Shown here piece by piece: positions 355 through 34,928 of a stretch of 38,600 nt of DNA; position 1 is the first letter of the stretch; each line of letters starts with the position of its first letter. Where the stretch lies: NCBI GenBank assembly GCA_031288475.1, contig JAITRJ010000001.1, positions 1-38,600 of the forward strand, read 5' to 3'. The notes under the pieces are model-generated. The model had not been told where the DNA came from. It did not search any database and worked only from the letters and a program-made list of their open reading frames with translations. The DNA comes from Helicobacteraceae bacterium (lineage in GTDB: Bacteria > Campylobacterota > Campylobacteria > Campylobacterales > SZUA-545). A program made the position numbers and the translations under genes.

Positions 355-618
355 TTGGTGGCTATCCTTCTCCCATACGGCGCTTGCGGCGCACAACCCG
401 CTGATGCCAAGACTGGGGCAGTCACCTTGCCGAAAACCAACGGCAAGTCTGGCGTTGTCAAAGGTTGCCGCGTCGCCCTGTTTCGCTATCCCGAAGATGT
501 GGCGGTCGATCCGAAGGATGATAAAAAACAGGATAAGAAGGAAGAGCCTTCGTCCAAACCTGCCGACAAGACTGTCGACAAAAAAAGCCATAAATCAAAA
601 ATTGGGAAGCCTAAATGA
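355..618 (+). CDS. small Lys-rich protein of unknown function
   Basis: I do not recognise this 87-residue ORF. It begins with TTG (or GTG at 358) directly after the TAA of the preceding gene and in the same frame, and it ends in an ATGA overlap with the DUF3396 gene, so it sits in an operon-like array. The first dozen residues are hydrophobic with a Cys near position 11 (LPYGAC), vaguely like a truncated lipoprotein signal. The C-terminal half is a run of Lys, Asp, Glu and Pro and is likely disordered. It may be a small secreted or lipoprotein partner of the flanking immunity genes, or a gene that has lost its true 5' end. The position is clear; the function is not. Confidence 0.4.
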   Translation: MVAILLPYGACGAQPADAKTGAVTLPKTNGKSGVVKGCRVALFRYPEDVAVDPKDDKKQDKKEEPSSKPADKTVDKKSHKSKIGKPK

Positions 619-1928
619 GCACAGCCGAACTTTATCTCACGCAAGAGGAAATCGAGGAATTCATCGCGAATACACGTTGGTATTATCGTGAGCACGAGAT
701 GTACTCCTATGGCTATGAAGGCGCGCTATATGGCGTATGTCCCTTCATTACCTTCTACCTCTACCACGGGAAAGAGGATTTCCTGCCGCTCTGCCACGAG
801 GCGATCGAACTGCACCAGGAGTTGCAGACGCTGATCGACGCGCCCTACCAGTTGGTTTACAACGACAAGACAGGAAACTGGGTCAAGGCCACGCCGGAAA
901 AGCTGGGCCGTGATCTGCTGCGGGAACACGCCCAACTGGACGCCAAGGCGGGCAAGGATTTTATTGTGGCGGCGACCGATCAGGAAAGTCGCGGCGATTC
1001 CGCCTGCTGGGCGATTTCCGCATGGATTACGCGCTATCGCTGGAGGTACAGCACGATCAAGATCACTTTTCGCGACAGGTGGTATCGCCAGAACAAGAGT
1101 GTCTGGCATCGTTTCGTCGAGAAATGGCTGAACCGCCTGCAACCGGAACAGTGTTACAGTGGCTACGAAATCGGCACGACCACGACGGGACCCATGGGCG
1201 CTTATGAAAGCGACGTGATGGAGCGTATCTGCGCCGATTATTTCTACGGACTGGACATCGACCATCCGCAAAAGATGGGCTACCATCGGCATGACAATGA
1301 AGATGGGCGTATCGATTATGCCGCACTTGGCGCGGGCCTGCGTACCCCCACCTGGAGCTTCCTCCTTTCCCCGCTCTGGCGCGGCAAACTGGGCAAAAGC
1401 ATTGGGGAAGTCAAAGCCGCGTTGCGCCACCCGGACATCCTTGTTACCGAGATTCCCTATCCGCGCGGTCAGCACAATCCGCATGGCGAACCCGCCCTGT
1501 GGATTCAGTTGGGCAAATTGAACCTCTACCCCGTTGACGAAGGCGTGCCGGAACTGCCGACGCTTGCCAACCGGCTGATCCGCCCGATTCGCTGCAATCT
1601 GCTGCAACTGTATACCCTCGATCCATGGGCGGACGACCCGAACCCGCGTTTTGACGAAGAGAACAGTCCCCGCTGGATGGCGCGTTTCGACGAGGACAGC
1701 GACTGGCCGAACAAGGAATCGCGCCAGAAGCCGCCGCCACCGAAAGAGGCGGAATTGCCCGTTTCCCTGCAATGCGAAGCGGGCCGCCCCTGCCCGCGCT
1801 CCGGCTACTGGTGGACGCCCGCCCGCCCGAAGTCGCGGCAAAAGTTCAACCAGGGCGAAATCCTGCCGGAAGTCGAATCCGTCACGCACGGAACGATTTT
1901 CTGGCACTGGGATGCAAATCAGGGCTGA
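615..1928 (+). CDS. DUF3396 family (type VI immunity family) protein
   Basis: This is a 437-residue ORF whose composition and segments (ALYGVCPFITFYLYHGKE near the N-terminus, TTTTGPMGAYE in the middle, PRSGYWWTPARP near the C-terminus) resemble DUF3396 proteins, which are annotated as a type VI secretion immunity family. The segment CPRSGYWWTPA is the most family-like feature. No signal peptide is evident, so it probably acts in the cytoplasm. The start ATG overlaps the stop of the small upstream ORF. Downstream the DNA runs straight into a frameshifted VgrG fragment, consistent with a T6SS spike/effector/immunity cassette. The region is clearly richer in GC than the genes after 2.3 kb. A cognate toxin is not visible, so the protein may be an orphan immunity gene. 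Confidence 0.65.
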   Translation: MSTAELYLTQEEIEEFIANTRWYYREHEMYSYGYEGALYGVCPFITFYLYHGKEDFLPLCHEAIELHQELQTLIDAPYQLVYNDKTGNWVKATPEKLGRDLLREHAQLDAKAGKDFIVAATDQESRGDSACWAISAWITRYRWRYSTIKITFRDRWYRQNKSVWHRFVEKWLNRLQPEQCYSGYEIGTTTTGPMGAYESDVMERICADYFYGLDIDHPQKMGYHRHDNEDGRIDYAALGAGLRTPTWSFLLSPLWRGKLGKSIGEVKAALRHPDILVTEIPYPRGQHNPHGEPALWIQLGKLNLYPVDEGVPELPTLANRLIRPIRCNLLQLYTLDPWADDPNPRFDEENSPRWMARFDEDSDWPNKESRQKPPPPKEAELPVSLQCEAGRPCPRSGYWWTPARPKSRQKFNQGEILPEVESVTHGTIFWHWDANQG

Positions 1929-4850: not shown

Positions 4851-4983
4851 ACCCGCGATCTTACGAGCCGCCGCAGGCGCAAAGCTACCGTGGTATAAAA
4901 CGCGGACGAAGCGGACTCGAAATCGCGGAGAATTTTGAGGGGGCGTTGGTTAGAATTATAATATCCGCATTTGAAAGGCATAT

Positions 4984-6678
4984 TTGGTCGCCCTTAGATA
5001 TTTTGCTTTTTTTTCGATCGTATTGCTTTTGGCAGCGGCGGTTGCACATTCTCTGACGTTGGGCGTTCTGGATATCGCGCAAAGCAATCTTTTCTGGGGA
5101 CTTTGCGCTTCGTTCGGAGCGCTGCTGCTGATTTCGCTCAGGGGCAAAAGGGCGAATTTCCTCTGCGCGGCGCTGTTGATGGCGCTTTTTTTACCACTTT
5201 TGACCAATCCACACATAACCTCCGCGCTTGGGGCGAAAACGACGCTGTTGTGCGCCTTCTGCGCACAGGCGATTATGCCGTTTAACCTTATGGCGTTCGC
5301 GGTGCTGCCGCACAAGCCGCTTTTTTCAATAGGCGGCGCATACTCGATTCTCTTTGTCCTGCTGGAGCTTCTGGCGGTGGTGCTCCTGCCTGTCGCGTCC
5401 GTCTATTTTGGGTTTGAGATTGAAGCCGCCGAGGCCTCTTTGGCTATGCTGATCAGCTCCGTTTTTTCGGCGGCTGTTTTGGCGATCGTCGCCATAAGAA
5501 ACGCGCACGAAAGCGAATCGGTTTCATTTTTCGCGGCGTTTGCCGCTTTTTTTGTTTCGCTGTATCTCTTCCCCAAAAGCGCTCAGATGTTTGTCTTTGC
5601 CGCTGCCGGCGCGCTTATTCTGCTGCTGGGCGCGCTGTTGGAACAGCGTCCGGTCGTGCCCGTCAGGGGAGGTAAGCCGCCGCCCGCGATCAGAGAGAAG
5701 ATCAAGCGGCAACATCGTTCTTTCCGCCTTGCCCTGCCCTCTCTGTCGTTTGATGGAGGCGCCTTTGATACGATTATCGTGCACAGCGGAGAACGGTACG
5801 ACCTTTTCAACCACAAGGTCAACATCGTGCTTTCGCCCGCCTACTACTGGTACAAGCGCTCCGATATTGCGTTTAAAAGCCTCTTTTCAGCTAGAAAATT
5901 TGCGCCTTCTATCTTCTTCTCGTGGGTTCCTGAGGGTAAATACCGCTACTACGTCTTCAAAGAGACGGAAGGGTATGGTTTTATCGCCTGCGATCCAGAC
6001 GCCGTCAAAAGCAGCCTGATTGCACAAGGCTTCGATTTGGATATGATCGGACGCATATACTTTGCCCAATGCGCGATCGACGCGGAGCTTTCGCCGGTCA
6101 GGGCGGGGGTGTCCTCTATTCTCGCGATCGTAAATGGCGCGTGGGTCGCGCTGCCATCCTCGACGGCGGAGAACGCAAATGAGTTTTTCGCGCCGATCAA
6201 CACCCGAAAACAGCCGTCGCTGCGCATATCTCGATCTCTGTACGAGCCGGGCGGCGACATAAAAGACATCAAACAAAGAAGTTTTATCTATGCGGCGGCG
6301 CTTTTGATTCTGCTTTTTTCCGCTCTGCTTATCGACATCTTCCATATCAAAGCGCAGAACTCCCGTCTTCAAGCCGCACAAGAGGAAATACTAGAAAACG
6401 CTAAACTGCCGTCGACGCTTTTACAATTGGAAAGTATAGAAAAGCGGCTAAACGCCACCGCTTCCGGACAGTACGCGATCAGAGAAAAGCTTTCCAAGCT
6501 GCTGGGATCGATTCAGAACGCCTGCGTTGAGTCTATTGAAATCAAGGATGGCAGAATCGAAGCGGTGGTGCGCCCCAACTTTCCAGATAACAGCGAAGCG
6601 CTTGCCGGCCAGCTTAAAACGGCACTTAACGGCTCAAGGATAGAGGTTCTCAATCAGATGGCGGTGGTCAGATGGTGA
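4984..6678 (+). CDS. GspL-like T2SS protein with polytopic membrane N-terminus
   Basis: This is a 564-residue protein that opens the type II secretion operon. Residues about 4-222 are eight or so hydrophobic segments (for example VLLLAAAVAHSL, ILFVLLELLAVVLLPVAS and FAAAGALILLLGALLEQR), unlike ordinary GspL. Residues about 225-425 form a soluble part, followed by one membrane helix (FIYAAALLILLFSALLIDIF, about 430-450), a coiled-coil-like stretch (QEEILENAKLPSTLLQLESI) and a short C-terminal domain. The tail after residue 425 has the layout of GspL/PilN-type inner-membrane platform proteins. TTG at 4984 is preferred because GAAAGG lies six bases upstream and no ATG is suitable. The stop overlaps the GspM-like gene. 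The role is inferred mainly from operon position and topology, and the extra membrane module could be sensory or structural. Confidence 0.6.
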   Translation: MVALRYFAFFSIVLLLAAAVAHSLTLGVLDIAQSNLFWGLCASFGALLLISLRGKRANFLCAALLMALFLPLLTNPHITSALGAKTTLLCAFCAQAIMPFNLMAFAVLPHKPLFSIGGAYSILFVLLELLAVVLLPVASVYFGFEIEAAEASLAMLISSVFSAAVLAIVAIRNAHESESVSFFAAFAAFFVSLYLFPKSAQMFVFAAAGALILLLGALLEQRPVVPVRGGKPPPAIREKIKRQHRSFRLALPSLSFDGGAFDTIIVHSGERYDLFNHKVNIVLSPAYYWYKRSDIAFKSLFSARKFAPSIFFSWVPEGKYRYYVFKETEGYGFIACDPDAVKSSLIAQGFDLDMIGRIYFAQCAIDAELSPVRAGVSSILAIVNGAWVALPSSTAENANEFFAPINTRKQPSLRISRSLYEPGGDIKDIKQRSFIYAAALLILLFSALLIDIFHIKAQNSRLQAAQEEILENAKLPSTLLQLESIEKRLNATASGQYAIREKLSKLLGSIQNACVESIEIKDGRIEAVVRPNFPDNSEALAGQLKTALNGSRIEVLNQMAVVRW

Positions 6679-7076
6679 TGGGAAAGCTCACAAAGATACT
6701 CGCCACGCTACTGTTGCTTCTGTGCGCGCTTTTTATCGCGCGCGCCTCAATGCAAAGCTCTCTGGAAGAAACCGCCGCACGCTACAAAGCGGTAGAAGCG
6801 AGCGTCCGATCGATTACGCGGCTTAAACTTGAGTGGGAGAACAATGCCGCCGCCAGATCGAACGTCGCCAATCTGTTCGCCTCCGAATCCTACAGAAAAC
6901 TGGGAACGATCGCGCAGACGCCGCAAGGGATCAAAGCTGAGCTTAAGGGGCTGAACGCGCAGACATTCGGTTATCTTACGCGGCAGATCTTCGAATCGCG
7001 GGCGATCGTAAAGGCTATGCGCGTTGATAGAAGAAACGACGAAGCGGTCGATCTCATGCTGGAGATTGTCTGGTGA
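6672..7076 (+). CDS. GspM-like T2SS inner-membrane protein
   Basis: This is a 134-residue protein with one N-terminal membrane helix (ILATLLLLLCALFIARA) followed by a helical, Glu/Arg-rich part and a small C-terminal domain, the GspM/PilO arrangement. It overlaps the GspL-like gene by seven bases and the next gene by four, so it is translationally coupled to both. GspM partners GspL in the inner-membrane platform of type II secretion systems. Sequence conservation in this family is weak, so the call rests on topology, size and position directly after a GspL-like gene. Possible starts are ATG at 6672 or 6678. Confidence 0.55.
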   Translation: MVMGKLTKILATLLLLLCALFIARASMQSSLEETAARYKAVEASVRSITRLKLEWENNAAARSNVANLFASESYRKLGTIAQTPQGIKAELKGLNAQTFGYLTRQIFESRAIVKAMRVDRRNDEAVDLMLEIVW

Positions 7077-7597
7077 GAAGGATATTCGCCCTTTTTATCT
7101 GGTTGATCGTCTTTATCCATACCGCGATCTTCTTTCTGCCAAAAAGGGAGATTTACTTTTTGGCAGAGCGGTTTTTACAAGAATGGAAGATTGCGGTCAA
7201 CTATGAGGATCCAAAAGATTACGGACTACTCTTTTCGCTGAAAAACCCCGAAATCATCTACGATAAAATCCCAATCACCGCCGCGGAGAGCGTCGATCTG
7301 TTTGTTTCGCTTTTTTACAGCTCACTCAGCGTTTCGCCTTTTACACTCTCAAACAGCTTCTCGTTTCTGCCGCCGCGCGTCGATTCGCTCCGCGCCCGCC
7401 ATACGATCTTCGCGCCGCACATCGTTTATGTAGAGGGAACGGGGGCGTTTGGGGAGTTCAAAGGCAGAATCAACCTGCTTGATCGGACGGCTAGCCTCCT
7501 GCTTCAGTCGCCAAGCGAGATACAGGGTCGTTATCCGTTGCTGTTTGGGGAGATGAATAAAACGGAGGATGGGTTTGTCTATGAACATACGTTTTGA
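7073..7597 (+). CDS. GspN-like T2SS accessory protein
   Basis: This 174-residue protein starts at GTG 7073, four bases inside the end of the GspM-like gene. It has a single N-terminal membrane anchor (IFALFIWLIVFIHTAIFFL) and a beta-rich remainder (for example IVYVEGTGAFGEFKGRINLL), the shape of GspN/AsmA-like periplasmic proteins. It overlaps the gspC ORF at its 3' end. I do not recognise a decisive motif; the identification is from order (L-M-N-C-D-E) and topology. It would act in the periplasm on the inner-membrane side of the secretion complex. Confidence 0.45.
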   Translation: MRRIFALFIWLIVFIHTAIFFLPKREIYFLAERFLQEWKIAVNYEDPKDYGLLFSLKNPEIIYDKIPITAAESVDLFVSLFYSSLSVSPFTLSNSFSFLPPRVDSLRARHTIFAPHIVYVEGTGAFGEFKGRINLLDRTASLLLQSPSEIQGRYPLLFGEMNKTEDGFVYEHTF

Positions 7598-8396
7598 CAG
7601 GATAACGCCTCTGTGGAAAACCCGTCTCCTGCTCTTTGGATATATGGCGGCGGCGATGGTGCTTTGTTCGTCAATAGCGCGGATATTCCTGCCCGTGGAT
7701 TCGGTTGAAACCGCAGACGCAGAACCGTTTAACTTCTTCAGGGCGTACCCTGTCGATCGCGCTTTTGCCCTCAGAAATACGGCGGGTGCCACGCCACCCG
7801 CGATATCGGGTGGCGCTCAGACCGGCGCGGCGACGCTCACGGGACTTACGATCAAGGCAATTTACGCCGAAAAGGACAAAAACGGCTTTATTGTGCTGGA
7901 TGACGGTGGATCGCTTACTTTCGTTTCCGTAGGCGAGTCGATACGCGGTTATACCCTGACGGAGGTGGAGGCGCGCCGCGCTATCTTTTCGCGAGGCGGC
8001 GTCATCTATGAACTGCGGATGGAAGAAAAAGCGCTGGAGATCAAAACAACGCGGACGGGAGATCCGGAAACGCCGCAGAAGAAGCGGGTCGTTACCAGAG
8101 ACGAGATCAAGCGGTATATGGAGGAACCGGCAATGATCTGGAACAATATCGGGATCACGCCGGTAAGCGAGAACGGTAAATTCAAGGAATTTCTTGTAAC
8201 TTTTGTGGCGCCGAACTCCGTTTTCAGCGAACTTGGTTTGAGGGCGGGCGATAAGCTGAAGTCAGTAAACGGCATAGAGCTGGATGGCTACGCCGCCGCT
8301 ATGAAACTTTATAGCGACATTGGTACAATAGGGTTTTTGAGGCTGATAATTGTGCGGAACAACCAGACAAGAGAGCTTAGTTATGAGATTCGCTAG
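7581..8396 (+). CDS. gspC: GspC-like T2SS clamp protein with PDZ domain
   Basis: There is one membrane helix near the N-terminus (LLLFGYMAAAMVLCSSIARI), a Pro/Gly/Ala linker, an HR-type domain (IKAIYAEKDKNGFIVLDDGG, then FVSVGESIRGYTL) and a C-terminal PDZ domain (SVFSELGLRAGDKLKSVNGI). This is the GspC layout: GspC links the inner-membrane platform to the secretin. The ATG at 7581 follows GGAGG by about a dozen bases; an in-frame ATG at 7569 lies on top of that site and is less likely. The 3' end overlaps gspD. An odd alternating inverted repeat sits in the linker-coding DNA at 7782-7814. Confidence 0.78.
   Translation: MNIRFDRITPLWKTRLLLFGYMAAAMVLCSSIARIFLPVDSVETADAEPFNFFRAYPVDRAFALRNTAGATPPAISGGAQTGAATLTGLTIKAIYAEKDKNGFIVLDDGGSLTFVSVGESIRGYTLTEVEARRAIFSRGGVIYELRMEEKALEIKTTRTGDPETPQKKRVVTRDEIKRYMEEPAMIWNNIGITPVSENGKFKEFLVTFVAPNSVFSELGLRAGDKLKSVNGIELDGYAAAMKLYSDIGTIGFLRLIIVRNNQTRELSYEIR
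7782..7814. repeat. alternating inverted repeat inside gspC
   Basis: An 8-bp stem GCCACCCG (7793-7800) and its complement CGGGTGGC (7807-7814) are separated by CGATAT, and a third part-complementary copy (GCGGGTG) precedes them, so the arms can pair in two alternative ways. The repeat encodes part of the Pro/Gly/Ala linker of GspC. It may be a small palindromic element tolerated in a flexible linker. Confidence 0.5.
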
Positions 8397-10197
8397 CCTG
8401 TTTTTGGCGCTGTTTTTAATTCTTTTGCCCGCCGAGGAGACGGTGGAGATCAATTTCAATGATCTGCCAATTGAGGAGTTCCTCAAAATGACCTCCAAAA
8501 TTATGGGCAAAAACCTGTTACTTACACAGCGGGTGCAGGGCAACGTGGATTTTATAAGCTCCAAGCCCGTTTACAAGGAAGAGATTTTGAAGCTGGCGCT
8601 GAGCGTGCTCGCCACGCGGGGGCTGACGCTGGTAGAGGAAGGAAGCTACTACAAACTGGTGCGGCTCGCAGAGGCGGCACAGGAGAATATTCCCGTCGTA
8701 AGCGGGAAAAACGCCGAAGGGGCGCTGATGGTAACACAGACGGTCCGCATAGAGGAAGAAAACGTCGACATTGTTGTCCAGAAAATACGCCACCTTCTCT
8801 CTCCCGCGGCGAAACTTGTTACGATGAGAGAGTCCAACTCTATGGTGGTGTCGGACTACCCCAGCAACATAAACACAATGCGAAAGGTAATTGACGATCT
8901 TATTGATAAACGCGCTTTGACAGTGGAATTTCTGCAGCTTAAATATGTGAAAGCCGCCTCGATCGTCGTCCCGCTCCAGCAGATCGTAAAAGGCGTACTT
9001 AATCCGCGTGTGGTGGATAACGAGGTACAGATATTAAAGGACGACGCGTCCAACTCGATCATCGTTACGGGGCGACCGGAGCACATCCGCCTGATCAGAA
9101 CGATGGTGCGAAGGCTGGACGTGGAGGACAACCAAGCCGCGACCACGGCGGAAGTAATCCTTTTACAGAACTCCGAAGCGGTGTCGCTGGTAAAAATTCT
9201 CGGCGCGATTCTGGATAAGACAACAACTACCGATCCGAAGCTGCGCCCAACGCTGAGCGCCGACGAGGAAATGAACGTGCTGATCGTGGCGGGTATGCCG
9301 GAGGATATCGTCAAAATCTCCGCGCTGGTTCACTCCCTCGACGTTCCACGCCAGCAGGTTTACGTGCAGGCGGCGATCGTTGAGATCAGCGACAATCTGG
9401 CGGATCAGATCGGCTTGACATATGGCGTTGAGGGCGCGTCCGTGGGCGGCAACGGCATATACACAATCGGCGCGCAGCTTACTGGCAGCGTCCCCTCCTC
9501 TATCACCTCCGCAATCCTGAGCCAATTGCAGACAACCGACGCGAACGGCAACATTAAGGTGGAAAGCGCGACGGCGCTGGCTGTCGGCGTGGGGTTGAAT
9601 CTGCTAACCAGTTCCAGCGCCGCCGAGGTGCTCAGTGAACCGTCGGTGCTATGCGTAAACAACAAGGAATCCACCATCTATGTTGGCGAAACAAGATCAA
9701 TCTTAACCAGCGAAACTACTACAACAGCGGGCATTCCCACCAAAAACTACACCCGTCAGGATATTGGCCTGACGCTCAAGGTCAAACCGCGCCTCTCCAC
9801 CAACAACAAAGTCGCCCTTACAATTGAAGCGCAGCTAGAGGGCATCGTGGGCGTTGATGGCAGCGCGCAGCCTACGACTACCAAGCGCAAGGTTACTACA
9901 AGCGCAATCGTGAGCGACGGCGAGCCGGTGATTCTGGGCGGTCTGATCAAAAACGAGGAGATCATTACGGAAACGAAGGTGCCGATCATATCCGCGATCC
10001 CATTCTTTGGACAGCTTTTCAAAAATACGCAGGAGGGCACGAATAAAACCAGTCTTGTGGTGATCGTAACGCCTTATATCGTGGAAAAAAGTGAGGATCT
10101 GGCGGCGCTGAGAAGCAGGCTGGGCAGGCTGGAGGCGCTCCGCCAGCAGTATGCCAAAGAGATTATCAAGGCGGCGGGTGAGCCGAAGCGCGACTGA
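8383..10197 (+). CDS. gspD: GspD secretin, T2SS outer-membrane channel
   Basis: This is an about 604-residue secretin. After a signal-peptide-like start (MRFASLFLALFLILLPAEE) comes an N0 domain (VEINFNDLPIEEFLKMTSKI), then repeated KH-like N domains with ESNSMVVSDYPSNI and DASNSIIVTGRPEHI, and the C-terminal secretin barrel with VYVQAAIVEISDNLADQIGL, SEPSVLCVNNKE and VPIISAIPFFGQLF. I chose ATG 8383 because the longer ORF start at 8350 would add eleven non-hydrophobic residues before the signal sequence. It overlaps gspC by 14 bases and lies just before gspE. It forms the outer-membrane pore for folded exoproteins or, in some Campylobacterota relatives, for DNA uptake. No pilotin gene is seen. 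Confidence 0.93.
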   Translation: MRFASLFLALFLILLPAEETVEINFNDLPIEEFLKMTSKIMGKNLLLTQRVQGNVDFISSKPVYKEEILKLALSVLATRGLTLVEEGSYYKLVRLAEAAQENIPVVSGKNAEGALMVTQTVRIEEENVDIVVQKIRHLLSPAAKLVTMRESNSMVVSDYPSNINTMRKVIDDLIDKRALTVEFLQLKYVKAASIVVPLQQIVKGVLNPRVVDNEVQILKDDASNSIIVTGRPEHIRLIRTMVRRLDVEDNQAATTAEVILLQNSEAVSLVKILGAILDKTTTTDPKLRPTLSADEEMNVLIVAGMPEDIVKISALVHSLDVPRQQVYVQAAIVEISDNLADQIGLTYGVEGASVGGNGIYTIGAQLTGSVPSSITSAILSQLQTTDANGNIKVESATALAVGVGLNLLTSSSAAEVLSEPSVLCVNNKESTIYVGETRSILTSETTTTAGIPTKNYTRQDIGLTLKVKPRLSTNNKVALTIEAQLEGIVGVDGSAQPTTTKRKVTTSAIVSDGEPVILGGLIKNEEIITETKVPIISAIPFFGQLFKNTQEGTNKTSLVVIVTPYIVEKSEDLAALRSRLGRLEALRQQYAKEIIKAAGEPKRD

Positions 10198-11722
10198 ACG
10201 ATTCCCCAGACTGAACGGGGCGAGTCTTGAGCCTGCGTTGTGCGAAGGGATCGACCGCGCCCTCTCTCTGAAGTACTTTGTGCTTTTTGCGGCGGTCAAC
10301 GGGACAACCGCCATCTGCCTTTCAGAGGCGTATCTTGCCGATTCGCTTGGCTTTTTGAGCAAGTACTCCCTTAATCTGCCCATTTATCTGCTCGATCAGG
10401 ATTCGTTCGATCGTCTCTACAACCGTTTTCTGGAGCAACGGACAGATGACGAACTAAGTAAGCTTGGCGGCGCTGACGATCCTATGGCGGAAGTCGCCGA
10501 AGAGGAGGAAGGATTCTCTCTCGCCGAGTTTCTTCGAAACAAAGCCGATCTTCTAAGCAGCGAGGAGTCCGCGCCGATCATACGTTTTGTAAACGCGCTT
10601 TTCTACCAGGCGATCAAAAAAGGAGCAAGCGATATTCACATAGAACCGCACGAACACAAAGGCGAGGTGCGTTTCAGGATCGACGGCGCGCTGGTGCGCT
10701 ATGTTGATCTCGATCTGAGGATTATCAACCTTGTTATCAGCCGTATCAAAGTTATATCAAATCTTGACATCGCCGAAAAACGCAAGACACAGGACGGACG
10801 CACACAAGTCAATATAGCCCGCCGTACGCTGGATATCCGCGTCTCCATGCTGCCCACGTACTACGGTGAGCGCGTAGTGATGCGGATACTGATGGAATCG
10901 GAGACAATTCCGCATCTGAAAGAGCTGGGATTTAACAATGCGCTGATAACCAAGCTGGAAGGGCTGCTTGAACACAGCCATGGCATTATTCTGGTAACAG
11001 GACCCACAGGAAGCGGTAAATCCACCACTCTGCACAGCTTTTTACAGCAGGTCGCCGAACCGCATAAAAATATTATCACGGTTGAAGACCCTGTCGAGTA
11101 TAAGGCGGACAATATCAATCAGGTGCAGGCGCGCGCAGATATCGGCTTTACCTTCGCTTCCGCTCTGCGATCGATACTGAGGCAGGACCCCGACGTGATT
11201 ATGATCGGCGAAATCAGGGACAATGAGACCGCCTCAATTGCCATTCGGGCGGCGCTTACTGGACATTTGGTTTTCTCCACGCTGCACACCAACACGTCTA
11301 CCGGCGCCGTTACGCGCCTTGTCGATATGGGGGTGGAGCGCTTTCTGGTCAGTTCCTCTTTGCTTGGCGTACTGGCGCAGCGGCTTGTACGCAAGTTGTG
11401 TGAGCGGTGCAGAACAGAAGACGAGCTTGCCGAAACATATGAAACCGAGTTCGGTATACGACGGGGCACCAAGATATATAAAGCGGCAGGCTGCCCTGAG
11501 TGCAACCACACAGGCTACAAAGGTCGGCGGGCGATCGGCGAACTGTTTATACCGGATGACGAAACGCTTACTCTTTTTAAGGAGACGATCGAAGAACACG
11601 CGATCAGAGAGCTTGCTGTCCGCAAAGGGATGCGGACGCTTCAGATGCAGCTAAAGGAGTTGGTGATTGCGGGCATAACCAGTATGGACGAAGCGGTAAG
11701 AATAGGGATCAAAAGCGAATAA
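10151..11722 (+). CDS. gspE: GspE type II secretion ATPase
   Basis: This is the hexameric cytoplasmic ATPase that drives pseudopilus assembly. Counting from 10151, Walker A GPTGSGKST is at about residues 284-292. The Asp box follows (NIITVEDPVEYK), then Walker B (DPDVIMIGEIRDNETA), the His box (GHLVFSTLHTNT) and the zinc-binding tetracysteine region (KLCERC, then GCPECNHTGYKG). The N-terminal domain is shorter than in many GspE proteins and holds an acidic stretch (AEVAEEEEGFSLAEFL). The start may instead be the GTG at 10178; both overlap the end of gspD. It is the last gene of the operon here, so GspF and the major pseudopilin must lie elsewhere. Confidence 0.95.
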   Translation: MPKRLSRRRVSRSATERFPRLNGASLEPALCEGIDRALSLKYFVLFAAVNGTTAICLSEAYLADSLGFLSKYSLNLPIYLLDQDSFDRLYNRFLEQRTDDELSKLGGADDPMAEVAEEEEGFSLAEFLRNKADLLSSEESAPIIRFVNALFYQAIKKGASDIHIEPHEHKGEVRFRIDGALVRYVDLDLRIINLVISRIKVISNLDIAEKRKTQDGRTQVNIARRTLDIRVSMLPTYYGERVVMRILMESETIPHLKELGFNNALITKLEGLLEHSHGIILVTGPTGSGKSTTLHSFLQQVAEPHKNIITVEDPVEYKADNINQVQARADIGFTFASALRSILRQDPDVIMIGEIRDNETASIAIRAALTGHLVFSTLHTNTSTGAVTRLVDMGVERFLVSSSLLGVLAQRLVRKLCERCRTEDELAETYETEFGIRRGTKIYKAAGCPECNHTGYKGRRAIGELFIPDDETLTLFKETIEEHAIRELAVRKGMRTLQMQLKELVIAGITSMDEAVRIGIKSE

Positions 11723-12295: not shown

Positions 12296-12762
12296 TTGCG
12301 AAAAAACAGCGTAGTCGGCATTGAATATGAGATAAAGGCGCTTCAAACGGCGCTATTATCAATTCAAGGAAAGACAGAGACGCGCTGGAGTTTCTCTGGA
12401 GGTAGGGCTGAATGAGCCTTATGAGCGGAGATCGCTCGCAGTCTCCAGCAAAAAGCGTATGACGGGCATAACGACAGCGCCGTGAAAAATGTTGATATCG
12501 AATAGGGTACTGAACTGAAAAAGGCGTGATCCTATACGGCGAGAGCAAAGATGGACAGAGCGTTCAGGCGATAGTCAGGAGAATCGACGGAAAGGCGGTC
12601 ATAATCAACTATAATCACCCGCTTGCTGGCAAAAATTTAAGTTTCAACGTTAAGCTTGCAAAGGTACGCGAAGCAATCGAAAGGGAAATCAATTCTGGCG
12701 CACTTGAGCATAAGTGTTGCGACGAGTATTCGTATGACGCAGGTTGCTGCTGCTCGTGCTAA
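12296..12762 (+). pseudogene. slyD: slyD remnant (FKBP-type peptidyl-prolyl isomerase)
   Basis: The SlyD order can be read across several frames. KNSVVGIEYEIKA starts near 12302, KDRDALEFL lies near 12370, LEVGLNE near 12395, GDRSQSP near 12427, and KAYDGHNDSAVKNVDIE near 12452, which runs into an in-frame TAG. After a further shift comes the open C-terminal part from about 12522: VILYGESKDGQSVQAIVRR and IDGKAVIINYNHPLAGKNLS. The last part is unmistakable (VDYNHPLAGK is the SlyD hallmark). The tail ends in a Cys-rich metal-binding-like sequence, KCCDEYSYDAGCCCSC. At least four frameshifts and one stop mean no full product. Only the final 79 codons form a continuous ORF, which lacks most of the isomerase domain. 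Confidence 0.85.
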
Positions 12763-13175
12763 GGCAACTTGTCCTCTCTGATCTGATATATTCTGGCGCT
12801 GCTACCGTTTAAGGTTACGGTTTTTTCCACAATTTCAAAACGAGGCAGCCCATACTCTTCTGCGTTTGGTATCAACTCCCAACTGGATACCCGCTCCTCG
12901 TTGTACAAAACCCACGTGTTGTCCAGATAGTCGATCAGCGCCTCGTTTTCGATCTTGTAGCTACTTTCCAACATCGCAAAGAGTCTCTTTTGAGTGTTTG
13001 AAAACTCTACATTCCCGTGAAAAGCGGCGATGCTTATCGGCGCGACAAGCCGCCGTCGCTCTTTAAGAAGCGTCTCTATTCTGGCGCTTTGTATACCCAT
13101 ATTAAGCGCCGCCACAGCGCCAAGCGTTGCAATGATAACAGCGATCATCACTTCGATCAGCGTGAATGCCCTCAT
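12759..13175 (-). CDS. type II/IV pseudopilin-like protein
   Basis: This 138-residue protein begins with a class III signal, MRAFTLIEVMIAVIIATLGA, which has the Glu at +5 after the FTLIE motif typical of prepilins cleaved by PilD/GspO peptidase. The rest is a small globular domain resembling minor pseudopilins of type II secretion systems. Its start overlaps the stop of tkt (ATGA), so it is co-transcribed with transketolase rather than with the T2SS operon 1 kb away. It would assemble in the pseudopilus tip. Which minor pseudopilin (GspH/I/J/K) it is cannot be told. It ends just beyond the slyD remnant on the opposite strand. Confidence 0.75.
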   Translation of the reverse strand: MRAFTLIEVMIAVIIATLGAVAALNMGIQSARIETLLKERRRLVAPISIAAFHGNVEFSNTQKRLFAMLESSYKIENEALIDYLDNTWVLYNEERVSSWELIPNAEEYGLPRFEIVEKTVTLNGSSARIYQIREDKLP

Positions 13176-18573: not shown

Positions 18574-19326
18574 TTGCCAAAAGCCAAGAAAAGGCTTGGA
18601 CAAAATTTTTTACGCGACGCAGTCGTACAGAAGCGAATCGTTGAAGCGATACCCGAAACCAAATATCGGCTGGTTGAAATCGGGTCTGGCTTGGGTGATT
18701 TGACAAGGGAAATTCTCACAAAGAGAGAGATGATCGCCATAGAGATAGACAGAGAGCTTATTGCGTCGCTGGAAGTACGTTTTGCGAGTGAAATCGCCAG
18801 CAAGAGGCTGAAGCTGATCTGTGCAGACGCACTTTTATTGTGGAAAGAAGGTGGGGTGAGCGAGATCGAATACGATCTCGTCGGCAATTTGCCCTATTAT
18901 ATAGCCACAGAAATCATCCTATGCGCTCTTGCCGACCCGCTCTGCAAGAGCTTGACAGTGATGACGCAAAAAGAGGTGGCGTGGAAATGGACAGCGGAGA
19001 AAGGCAGCGCCCTCTCGTTGCTTGCGCGTTCCGTAGGAGAGACGCGACTCTGCTTTGATGTTCCGCCGGAGGCGTTTGAGCCAAAACCGAAGATCTTTTC
19101 GGCAGTGTTGAGGATAATCAAAAACGCGGATAGCTTCGACATGGAGTTTTCGCGCTTTTTACGCGCCGCGTTCGCGCAGCCCCGCAAGACGCTGCTTGGC
19201 AATCTGCGCAAGCGGTACGAAAAAACGGCTGTTGAGAAGGCGTTCAGAATCTGCCGGATTGCGCCGATGGCGAGGGCTCATGAACTGACATTGGAACAGT
19301 TTAAGCGGTTGAAAAATATATTGTAA
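18574..19326 (+). CDS. rsmA: 16S rRNA dimethyladenosine transferase RsmA/KsgA
   Basis: This enzyme dimethylates two adjacent adenines in the 3' hairpin of 16S rRNA during 30S maturation. The protein is 250 residues; GQNFL at 9-13, the SAM-binding motif EIGSGLGDLT at 35-44, acidic IEIDREL at about 56-62 and the substrate motif NLPYY at 105-109 are all present. The start is TTG 18574, with AAGGAG nine bases upstream. It is followed eight bases later by rnj, forming the ksgA-rnj pair found in Campylobacterota. It is slightly shorter than gammaproteobacterial KsgA. Confidence 0.95.
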   Translation: MPKAKKRLGQNFLRDAVVQKRIVEAIPETKYRLVEIGSGLGDLTREILTKREMIAIEIDRELIASLEVRFASEIASKRLKLICADALLLWKEGGVSEIEYDLVGNLPYYIATEIILCALADPLCKSLTVMTQKEVAWKWTAEKGSALSLLARSVGETRLCFDVPPEAFEPKPKIFSAVLRIIKNADSFDMEFSRFLRAAFAQPRKTLLGNLRKRYEKTAVEKAFRICRIAPMARAHELTLEQFKRLKNIL

Positions 19327-19334
19327 GGAACTAA

Positions 19335-21275
19335 ATGGACGAAAAAAACACAAGCGCGCCACCCAAAGATGGGGTGCAGGAGAGCGGCAAACGCTGGAAA
19401 AACAAGAGAGCGCAGCGGAGCGGCAAGCGATCGTCGGACGAGGCAAAAAAGGAGACTAAAAGCCGCGACCCCAACGAGAATCGTGTAGGTGATCCGTTTT
19501 CAGGCGGCGTGAACAGAAACGGTGAAGGGTGGTTTGGGCGGATGAGAGACGCCATAACGGCAAACAGAAAGAGCCACGAAGAGCGGCTTAGCTGTTATAT
19601 GAACTTCGGCAATAGAGAAAAGTCGATCCGTTTTGCGCCGCTAGGAGGTCTCGATCAGATCGGCGGGAATATCGCGGTCTTTGAAACGGAAAAGAGCGCG
19701 ATCGTCGTTGATGTTGGAATGAGTTTCCCTACGCCGGAAATGCACGGCGTTGATATTCTGGTGCCGGATTTTAGCTATCTGCACGCGATTCGGGATAAGA
19801 TCGCCGGCATTGTAATCACACATGCGCATGAAGATCATATCGGGGCGGTGCCGTACCTATTCAAGGAGCTTCAGGTGCCGCTTTACGGCACACCGCTACC
19901 GCTCGCAATGATCGGCAGCAAGTTTGACGAGCATAAAATAGTCGCGCATAAGAGCTTTTTTCGTTTCGTAGAGAAGCGTAAGCCGGTAAGAATCGGCGAT
20001 TTTGAGATAGAGTGGATACATATGACCCATTCGGTGATCGACGCCTGTTCGCTGGCAATCACGACGGAAGCGGGCACGGTGATCCATACTGGTGACTTTA
20101 AAATGGACAACAGCCCGATCGATGGTTTTCCTCCCGACTACCACCGCTTAGCGTATTACGGAGAACGCGGCGTTCTGGCGCTCTTTAGCGATTCGACCAA
20201 CAGCTTCAATCTCGGTATGACCAAAAGCGAATCGATCGTGGGCAAAACCTTTGACGAGCTGTTTTCCAAAGCGAAGGGAAGGGTGATTATGTCCACCTTC
20301 AGCTCCAACACGCACCGCATAGCGCAAGCAATTGACAGCGCCTGCAAGTTTGGGCGCAAGGTGGCGGTGATTGGGCGATCGATGGAAAAGAATCTCAGTC
20401 TGGCGATGGAATTGGAATACGTGAAGTTCGATCAGAAGATATTTATCGACGCGCACGAAGTTGCAAAGATGCCAGACACCGAAGTTCTGGTAATCACGAC
20501 AGGCTCACAGGGCGAGAATCAGGCGGCGCTTTTTAGGATGAGCATCAACGAGCACCGCCATATCCACATCAAGCCTACCGACACGATCGTCATCAGCGCC
20601 AAAGCGATACCAGGCAATGAGGCGAGCATATCAACGGTTGTAAACCAGATCGCCAAATCAGGCGCGACGATTGCCTATCAGGAGTTCAGCGAAATTCACG
20701 TCAGCGGGCACGCCGCGCAAGAAGAGCAAAAGATGATGATCCGCCTTATAAAACCGCGCTTTTTTATTCCCGTTCATGGCGAATGTCAGCACTTGTTAAA
20801 ACATAAAGAAACAGCGGTTAGCTGCGGCGTTCCTGAGCGCAATATTGCGGTGATTGAAGACGGCGAGCAGATTGACATATCGGCGCAGGGTATTCACAAG
20901 GTACGCAGCGTCCGTTGCGGTAAAACCTTTATAGACAATCAGATCAACCGCGAAGTGGAAAGTGACGTGGTTTATGACCGCCAGAACCTTGCCAAAGAGG
21001 GAATTATCGTATTAATTATGCAGATCGACAAGAAAGAGCAGAAGCTCAGTACGAAGCCAAGCGTGATGAGCTATGGATTGGTGGCACAGAAGCGCGAAAG
21101 GGCGTTTAACAAGGAGCTTGAGGGAGTGCTGGACAACTTCGTGCGCGGAATCAAGCCCGAAGAGTACGGCAATATGAAGATGCTTGAAAACAACCTTCGG
21201 CAGGCTATGAAAAAGCATATTTTCCGATCGCTCAAACGCTATCCGATCATCGTGCCGAACATCTTTGTGCAGTAG
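19335..21275 (+). CDS. rnj: ribonuclease J
   Basis: This is a 646-residue metallo-beta-lactamase/beta-CASP ribonuclease, the main mRNA-decay and rRNA-processing enzyme in bacteria lacking a canonical RNase E. The core starts near residue 98 (RFAPLGGLDQIGGNIAVFE); the zinc motif HAHEDHIG is at 163-170, with DFKMDN, SDSTN and the SGHA segment later. Residues 1-95 form a Lys/Arg/Ser-rich, probably disordered extension, also known from Helicobacter RNase J, where it matters for RNA binding and complex formation. It directly follows rsmA with TAAGGAA before the ATG. No helicase partner is visible nearby. Confidence 0.95.
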   Translation: MDEKNTSAPPKDGVQESGKRWKNKRAQRSGKRSSDEAKKETKSRDPNENRVGDPFSGGVNRNGEGWFGRMRDAITANRKSHEERLSCYMNFGNREKSIRFAPLGGLDQIGGNIAVFETEKSAIVVDVGMSFPTPEMHGVDILVPDFSYLHAIRDKIAGIVITHAHEDHIGAVPYLFKELQVPLYGTPLPLAMIGSKFDEHKIVAHKSFFRFVEKRKPVRIGDFEIEWIHMTHSVIDACSLAITTEAGTVIHTGDFKMDNSPIDGFPPDYHRLAYYGERGVLALFSDSTNSFNLGMTKSESIVGKTFDELFSKAKGRVIMSTFSSNTHRIAQAIDSACKFGRKVAVIGRSMEKNLSLAMELEYVKFDQKIFIDAHEVAKMPDTEVLVITTGSQGENQAALFRMSINEHRHIHIKPTDTIVISAKAIPGNEASISTVVNQIAKSGATIAYQEFSEIHVSGHAAQEEQKMMIRLIKPRFFIPVHGECQHLLKHKETAVSCGVPERNIAVIEDGEQIDISAQGIHKVRSVRCGKTFIDNQINREVESDVVYDRQNLAKEGIIVLIMQIDKKEQKLSTKPSVMSYGLVAQKRERAFNKELEGVLDNFVRGIKPEEYGNMKMLENNLRQAMKKHIFRSLKRYPIIVPNIFVQ

Positions 21276-28865: not shown

Positions 28866-28903
28866 GTCGTATGTTATGATTTTTGTACTTGAAAGGAGAG
28901 AAG

Positions 28904-30223
28904 GTGATTTTTGATCTAGTAAAAAACGAACTGAAAAAGAGCGTTCCGAACGACGAGTTTTCCCGCTACATAAGTCAACTGACTTATGCTGAAGATGAAT
29001 CATTCTCTGACTGCGTCTGCCTGAACGCGCCAAATCCTTACATAGCCGCGTGGGTACAGACAAAGTACGCGTCAAAAATAGCAGGAACATTTCAAGAGCT
29101 AAATGGCACCACTCCACAGGTGATCATTAAGATAAAACATCCGCGGGCAAGAACCGTCATCAGCGCTGACGACATACTCCAAAAAGAGATAAAAACCGCT
29201 AAAAGCACACTTCTAAACCCTTCCTACACATTTGAGAGCTTTGTAATCGGCCGTTCTAACGACCTTGCTTTCTCCGTTGCTAAAGCGGTATGTGAAAATC
29301 CTGATGTCCTTTATAATCCCGTTTTCATCCACGGAGGCGTCGGACTGGGGAAAACTCATCTTTTACAGGCGATTGGCAACGCGGCTGTAAAAAATAACAA
29401 ACACGTCATCTACAGCACCTGCGATCAATTCACTAACGAATTTATCTTTCACATAAACAATCACTCAATGGAACGTTTCAGGGATAAATACCGCCACTGC
29501 GACTTCTTCCTAATTGACGACGTACAATTTTTGAGCACCCGCGAATCCACGCAGGAGGAATTTTTCAACACTTTCAACGACCTTCACAACGATAAGAAAC
29601 AGATCGTGCTGACCGCCGACAAGAACCCAAAATTGATCGCAGGACTTGAAGAAAGGCTTAAAAGCCGCTTTATGTGGGGAATGATAGCGGATATCCAACG
29701 CCCCGATCTTGAAACAAAAATCGCAATTATCAAAAAGAAGTGCGAAATCGACCAAATCAAAATCAGCGATGAAATCGTCAATTACATAGCAACCATTCTT
29801 GAAGAAAACATCCGCGAAATCGAAGGAGCGCTGATCAGAATCAGAGCCTACGCCAATATGCTGAATCAGGCGATCACAATTGATTTTGTCAAAGATACAT
29901 TAAAAGACTATATTAAGGAAAAACACGAAAACATCACAATTGAAGAGATTATCACTACAGTCGCAAAAGAACTGAACTGCAAGCCAAGCGAAATCCGCAG
30001 CAAATCAAGAACGGCGCGGATTGTCAATGCCAGAAGAATGGTAATTTTCCTTGCCCACAAGCTCACACAAAACTCAATGAGAGTCATAGCGGAATACTTC
30101 GAAATGAAGGATCATTCAGCTGTAAGCCATTCTTTAAGGACAATTTCGCAAATCATTGCCAGCGACGCCGGTTTTAAACTGAAAATTGACGAACTATCCA
30201 GCAAAATCACCTCCGTACACTAA
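28904..30223 (+). CDS. dnaA: chromosomal replication initiator DnaA
   Basis: AAA+ initiator that melts the origin. From GTG 28904 (GGAGAG just upstream) it is 439 residues. It has an N-terminal domain I (FDLVKNELKKSVPNDEFSRY), a short linker, Walker A GGVGLGKT at about 144-151, Walker B FFLIDDVQFLSTRE, and a C-terminal helix-turn-helix domain IV with FEMKDHSAVSHSL. The TTG at 28883 overlaps the ribosome site and is unlikely as a start. DnaA boxes flank the gene on both sides. dnaN and gyrB follow on the same strand, the usual order at origins. Confidence 0.97.
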   Translation: MIFDLVKNELKKSVPNDEFSRYISQLTYAEDESFSDCVCLNAPNPYIAAWVQTKYASKIAGTFQELNGTTPQVIIKIKHPRARTVISADDILQKEIKTAKSTLLNPSYTFESFVIGRSNDLAFSVAKAVCENPDVLYNPVFIHGGVGLGKTHLLQAIGNAAVKNNKHVIYSTCDQFTNEFIFHINNHSMERFRDKYRHCDFFLIDDVQFLSTRESTQEEFFNTFNDLHNDKKQIVLTADKNPKLIAGLEERLKSRFMWGMIADIQRPDLETKIAIIKKKCEIDQIKISDEIVNYIATILEENIREIEGALIRIRAYANMLNQAITIDFVKDTLKDYIKEKHENITIEEIITTVAKELNCKPSEIRSKSRTARIVNARRMVIFLAHKLTQNSMRVIAEYFEMKDHSAVSHSLRTISQIIASDAGFKLKIDELSSKITSVH

Positions 30224-30230
30224 TCCATAA

Positions 30231-30239
30231 TGTGAATAA
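30231..30239. other. DnaA box between dnaA and dnaN
   Basis: TGTGAATAA again (reverse TTATTCACA), eight bases after the dnaA stop, in AT-rich DNA. It corresponds to the position of oriC2, where unwinding occurs in Helicobacter. A long-loop inverted repeat (AAAAGCCA 30260-30267 / TGGCTTTT 30288-30295) follows. Only one good box is visible on each side, fewer than in well-studied origins. Confidence 0.55.
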
Positions 30240-30346
30240 TTGTAAAATCTCAAAAACCAAAAAGCCACGAACCAAACGTGCAAAAAATGGCTTTTCACGT
30301 TTTCACGCCGGCTACTACGGCTACTACAAGAATTAAAGGAGATCGC

Positions 30347-34928
<4,582 letters not shown>

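Follow-up and report, generated by a model that had tools for sequence, protein, structure and literature searches.

A GspL-type protein of the type II secretion system with an N-terminal eight-helix module homologous to that of GGDEF cyclases in two genera of Campylobacterales

The window analyzed here, a stretch of 38,600 nt from a Helicobacteraceae bacterium (assembly G000, 71% complete, 1.25 Mb), derives from an uncultured lineage; among named genomes, our scan returned Helicobacteraceae bacterium Cc175_bin116 as the sole congener. Its plus strand carries a type II secretion system (T2SS) operon headed by an intact open reading frame of 564 aa (4984-6678), which we call fused gspL. This frame starts with a TTG codon (printed as L), separated by a 5-nt spacer from a Shine-Dalgarno-like GAAAGG (4973-4978, +). 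The genes downstream overlap or abut, with starts at 6672, 7073, and 7569. The gspM-like gene (6672-7076, +; 134 aa, one N-terminal transmembrane [TM] helix) was assigned by position and size, a Pfam search giving no match above chance, and the gspN-like gene (7073-7597, +; 174 aa, one N-terminal TM helix) by position only, with no match in Pfam or NCBIfam. They are followed by PDZ-containing gspC (7569-8396, +; NF041515, E value of 2e-23, and TIGR01713, E value of 2.5e-18, both below the curated cut-off), the gspD secretin gene (8350-10197, +; TIGR02517, 359 bits against a cut-off of 351.35), and the gspE ATPase gene (10151-11722, +; PF00437, E value of 3.6e-130; TIGR02533, E value of 8e-166), GspC and GspE being the best matches of their respective genes. 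In the congener G001, the immediate neighbors of the fused gene are the gspM-like gene on one side and, on the other, a gene for a protein of ∼320 aa with one TM helix, which is gspK-like by position only and matches no family. We did not find gspF in G000, while T2SSF-family proteins are encoded in the complete genome of the congener G002; since G000 is only 71% complete, missing parts such as gspF carry no meaning.

The original prediction had placed eight hydrophobic segments at residues 4 to 222 of the fused protein, which proved correct to within a few residues: hydropathy showed eight segments within residues 2 to 219, plus a ninth at 434 to 452. An AlphaFold2 model of the full-length protein (50-row alignment, mean pLDDT of 86, pTM of 0.52) agrees with these segments, placing helices at residues 2-26, 33-53, 57-74, 84-107, 116-142, 148-172, 177-194, and 199-219. 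This 8-TM module (residues 1-219; 4984-5640, +), when modelled alone, gave a pLDDT of 93.6 and a pTM of 0.89. It is followed by a linker rich in Lys, Arg, and Pro (residues 220-261; 5641-5766, +) that is poorly conserved, varies in length among relatives, and is predicted to be disordered, with a pLDDT of <50 at residues 228 to 258. The remainder comprises a mixed alpha/beta domain modelled at residues 262 to 391, which corresponds to a predicted GspL-type cytoplasmic domain with the motif VxLSPxYYWYK (about residues 262-395; 5767-6168, +), a long helix (431-472) and a second one (479-509) that together form a single TM helix running into a periplasmic helical stalk (residues 431-509; 6274-6510, +), and a tail whose beta-beta-alpha-beta-beta order (513-563) suggests a periplasmic ferredoxin-like domain (residues 513-564; 6520-6675, +). 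Summed over the ten fused proteins, Lys and Arg of the loops number 111 on the predicted cytoplasmic sides versus 26 on the other sides. From this distribution we infer a module embedded in the inner membrane whose two ends face the cytoplasm, a topology that would leave the GspL domain cytoplasmic, in line with expectation.

As to the identity of the part beyond the module, a Foldseek search of the full-length model against 350,542 PDB chains ranked 4pht_X, 4pht_Y, and 1yf5 first to third, all of them cytoplasmic domains of Vibrio GspL/EpsL (E values of 5e-3 to 1e-2, probability of 1.00), with PulL (5tkw) at rank 15; the PulM C-terminal domain was among the weak matches (E value of 0.76). The GspL resemblance originally read into residues 225 to 564 was thus borne out at the level of fold. 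By sequence, the fused protein scored 11.7 bits with the curated GspL model TIGR01709 (cut-off of 65) and found no meaningful match among solved structures in the PDB. Its profile aligned with E. coli GspL in a plausible register that was not significant (hhalign, E value of 0.41), and an unfused Campylobacterales homologue (L013) likewise had no NCBIfam match. Fold rank, the Foldseek probability of 1.00, and gene order suggest that the residues beyond the module are of GspL type, an E value of 5e-3 being modest. As in GspL/EpsL/PulL/OutL, the model combines a cytoplasmic GspL fold with one TM helix, a helical stalk, and a ferredoxin-like periplasmic domain, and the gene stands ahead of gspM-like, gspC, gspD, and gspE genes. 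The cytoplasmic domain, of ∼135 aa, is smaller than the matched PDB chains of 224 to 238 aa. GspL as described elsewhere is bitopic and crosses the membrane only once (PMC3815138), whereas here eight extra TM helices and a disordered linker come first; we therefore file the protein as a GspL variant. Unfused GspL-type proteins of other Campylobacterales, with open frames of ∼240 to 390 aa, are its orthologues by sequence, tree, and gene order, the unfused gene occupying the same slot ahead of the same genes, but lack the 8-TM module. The fused protein is accordingly orthologous to the GspL-type proteins of the Campylobacterales assembly platform.

Where, then, does the additional module come from? 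The original prediction had likened it to multi-TM sensory inputs, and we indeed found it to be homologous to the N-terminal part of a group of Campylobacterales diguanylate cyclases, here termed 8TM-GGDEF cyclases, whose eight helices are collinear with it one by one. Comparing an alignment of fused GspLs only with one of cyclases only, hhalign returned a probability of 99.5 and an E value of 8.9e-23 over 182 collinear columns. In addition, a profile built from cyclase modules only retrieved the fused GspLs of four genomes at E values of 1.4e-14 to 1.4e-19 and matched the module in the window at 4.7e-15; it missed the copy in genome G009, the most diverged fused GspL among those sampled. Across 397 genomes, the other matches of this profile were GGDEF proteins, with a single exception in G383, a marginal partial match (E value of 5e-4) to an unrelated 4-TM protein. 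A chance similarity of hydrophobic helices was rejected on this ground. A paralogue is present in the same genome (contig C56 of G000, about 19263-20678), where the same module precedes a GGDEF domain (PF00990, E value of 5e-28) with a GGEEF motif, and the module is found on GGDEF proteins with this motif across the family of the window and several other families of Campylobacterales. Identity between the module in the window and those of the cyclases is only ∼20 to 25%.

No Pfam family covers the module, and at the E values allowed neither it nor its cyclase relatives matched the Pfam model of a named sensor such as MASE1 or 7TMR. Sequence comparison of the module with the PDB likewise gave no match, and fold searches, including one of a viral library, found only weak, generic GPCR-like bundles at E values above 0.05. 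We therefore rejected MASE1, 7TMR, and other named sensors as its identity. To our knowledge, MASE1-type integral membrane input domains occur on signalling enzymes and not on secretion platform proteins. The module is like these input domains of cyclases and histidine kinases in being a polytopic N-terminal part common to different output domains, but differs from them in matching no such Pfam model. In DgcE, the MASE1 domain is required for activity and localisation (PMC6510439).

A GspL-domain homologue is present in 141 of 299 genomes of the order Campylobacterales, yet open frames long enough to hold the module occurred in just 10 of these, all from two genera (g1 and g6) of one family; the homologues of the other 131 genomes are unfused and at most 387 aa long. 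Thus, while the earlier reading of a GspL-like protein joined to a sensory-input-like module holds, the architecture, when sought at T2SS loci elsewhere in the Campylobacterota, turned out not to be general but confined to these two genera. In all 10 genomes the N-terminal part is fused and no separate gene. The fused GspL domains form one clade (support of 95/94) with the unfused protein of G006 as sister and the other unfused proteins outside, indicating that the module was gained once. In the module tree, a weakly supported split (77/47; recovered in 71% of bootstrap trees) groups the fused modules together among the cyclase modules. G006 itself encodes an 8TM-GGDEF cyclase alongside its unfused GspL. 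Judging from these trees, the simplest account would be one gain, by duplication of a cyclase module, in the common ancestor of g1 and g6. A literature search, most subscription journals lying outside it, found no description of such a fusion.

The way in which the module is connected to its output differs between the two protein types. In the cyclases listed, TM8 is separated from the GGDEF domain by only 4 to 7 aa ending in a conserved YRLA-like stretch, a short fixed joint that would be typical of helical signal relay. In the fused GspLs, by contrast, the GspL domain follows a disordered, Lys/Pro-rich linker of 39 to 168 aa; almost all of them lack the juxtamembrane YRLA and the F that the cyclases conserve in the TM2-TM3 loop, while P99 and S115 are retained. 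Since the cyclase joint has been replaced in this manner, a simply transplanted, direct cyclase-style relay is unlikely, and the flexibility of the linker weakens any signalling model. Instead, the module in GspL probably acts by tethering, that is, through self-association, clustering, or localisation.

The origin of the module is well supported; its function we infer. Our preferred reading, to which we give about even chances, is that GspL gained a duplicated cyclase module that serves as a tethered receptor or oligomerisation domain and affects platform assembly. That is, the GspL N terminus of the g1 and g6 ancestor would have acquired the duplicated 8-TM module of a resident 8TM-GGDEF cyclase, with the long flexible linker tethering it to the cytoplasmic domain. 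By analogy with known GspL, which binds GspE via its cytoplasmic domain (PMC3815138, PMC11981180), this domain should dock GspE. Self-association of the module, possibly controlled by a ligand, might then alter local GspL clustering and, with it, how GspE assembles on the platform; the module would pass on no rigid helical movement, unlike its presumed action in the cyclase. Known GspL cytoplasmic domains both dimerise and bind GspE (PMC3815138, PMC11981180), so clustering could alter recruitment of the ATPase. Action by proximity or clustering fits better than a direct relay of the cyclase type. A more far-reaching version, which we put forward tentatively and consider less probable, is that GspL has a built-in membrane receptor, the 8-TM module sensing a ligand or membrane state to control GspL-GspE assembly and thereby gate secretion post-translationally.

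The TTG start codon and a full-length gene unusual for GspL might suggest an annotation or assembly artefact, either the merging of two genes or a real start located after the module, and yet such an artefact is highly improbable: the same open frame recurs in 10 assemblies with no internal stop codon in any copy (one being a 100%-complete congener with 86% identity), most fused relatives likewise open with TTG, and most of the 10 are consistent in start codon and length. Moreover, codon-level constraint spans the module. Between two congeners, dN/dS was 0.118 in the module, 0.122 in the GspL cytoplasmic domain, and 0.33 in the linker, and by this comparison the module is under purifying selection. 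We thus rejected an assembly join or false start, in keeping with the original view of the locus. The same values bear on whether the module, its ancestral sensory role gone, is now no more than an additional, passive means of anchoring GspL in the membrane or stabilising it. Loss of the cyclase coupling joint in favor of a long, disordered, and variable linker would be consistent with this, as would the degeneration of cyclase-conserved module residues in genus g1, where E110-R111 have become H-K in the protein of the window. Against it stand the constraint on the module, similar to that on the GspL domain, and its identity of 90% between congeners, compared with 65% for the linker. One membrane helix is present in GspL anyway, and the other homologues all do without the module. 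On balance, we regard a mere anchor as rather unlikely.

Still less probable, in our view, is a pairing of the GspL module with that of the resident 8TM-GGDEF cyclase, which might recruit a source of c-di-GMP to the platform or let platform occupancy control the cyclase. It would fit that 9 of the 10 fused genomes also encode a cyclase with a homologous module, and that PA14_29490 of Pseudomonas aeruginosa, an ATPase of the T2SSE class, binds c-di-GMP (PMC4624772). Against it, most T2SSE ATPases tested do not bind c-di-GMP (PMC4624772), and the modules that would have to pair are as divergent as noted above. The GspE of the window matched no T2SSE_N/MshEN domain, and a separate scan of its N-terminal 200 aa gave no PF05157, leaving direct c-di-GMP control via this GspE unsupported. 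G009 (98% complete) has kept its fused GspL with no cyclase of the 8TM-GGDEF type detected; if this genome is representative, pairing cannot be the sole function.

T2SS platforms are suspected of relaying signals. In the present case, a receptor-type module of a signalling enzyme appears to have been attached, once, to the very protein expected to hold the secretion ATPase, and to have been kept under selection. In one lineage related to Campylobacter, a receptor-like part may therefore belong to the secretion platform, and the fusion provides a natural setting in which to ask whether secretion can be controlled at GspL. In addition, it suggests that an unnamed 8-TM module, known here from cyclases of several Campylobacterales families, can serve an output besides c-di-GMP synthesis. 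If the receptor reading is true, post-translational gating of secretion would rest with a sensor module that was captured from a c-di-GMP enzyme.

Several further observations concern the relatives and the surroundings of the locus. With at least 12 GGDEF matches in its 71%-complete, 1.25-Mb assembly, G000 has a c-di-GMP network that is rich for a small genome. In G009, the fused gspL (contig C44, L077:4939-7017) lies away from other T2SS genes, with moeA on one side and, one small open frame away, an M48-peptidase gene on the other, and a GspD-like secretin is encoded on a different contig; its product has a linker of 168 aa and the most diverged module. The unfused GspL homologue of G021 (L018:1408-2565; 385 aa) has a longer soluble N-terminal extension with an apparent internal repeat, INEINTRINAYKKSLNVD occurring twice. 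Elsewhere in the window, a minor-pseudopilin-like gene with a prepilin N-methylation motif (12759-13175) lies on the strand opposite the gspL-E operon, separate from it and abutting a transketolase open frame. Near the contig edge, a gene at 615-1928 (+) shows weak similarity to a TsiV-type T6SS immunity family (PF11876, E value of 2e-4, below the cut-off). Finally, dnaA, dnaN, and gyrB follow one another at 28883-33741 (+), ∼17 kb from the secretion operon, in what is likely the replication-origin region.
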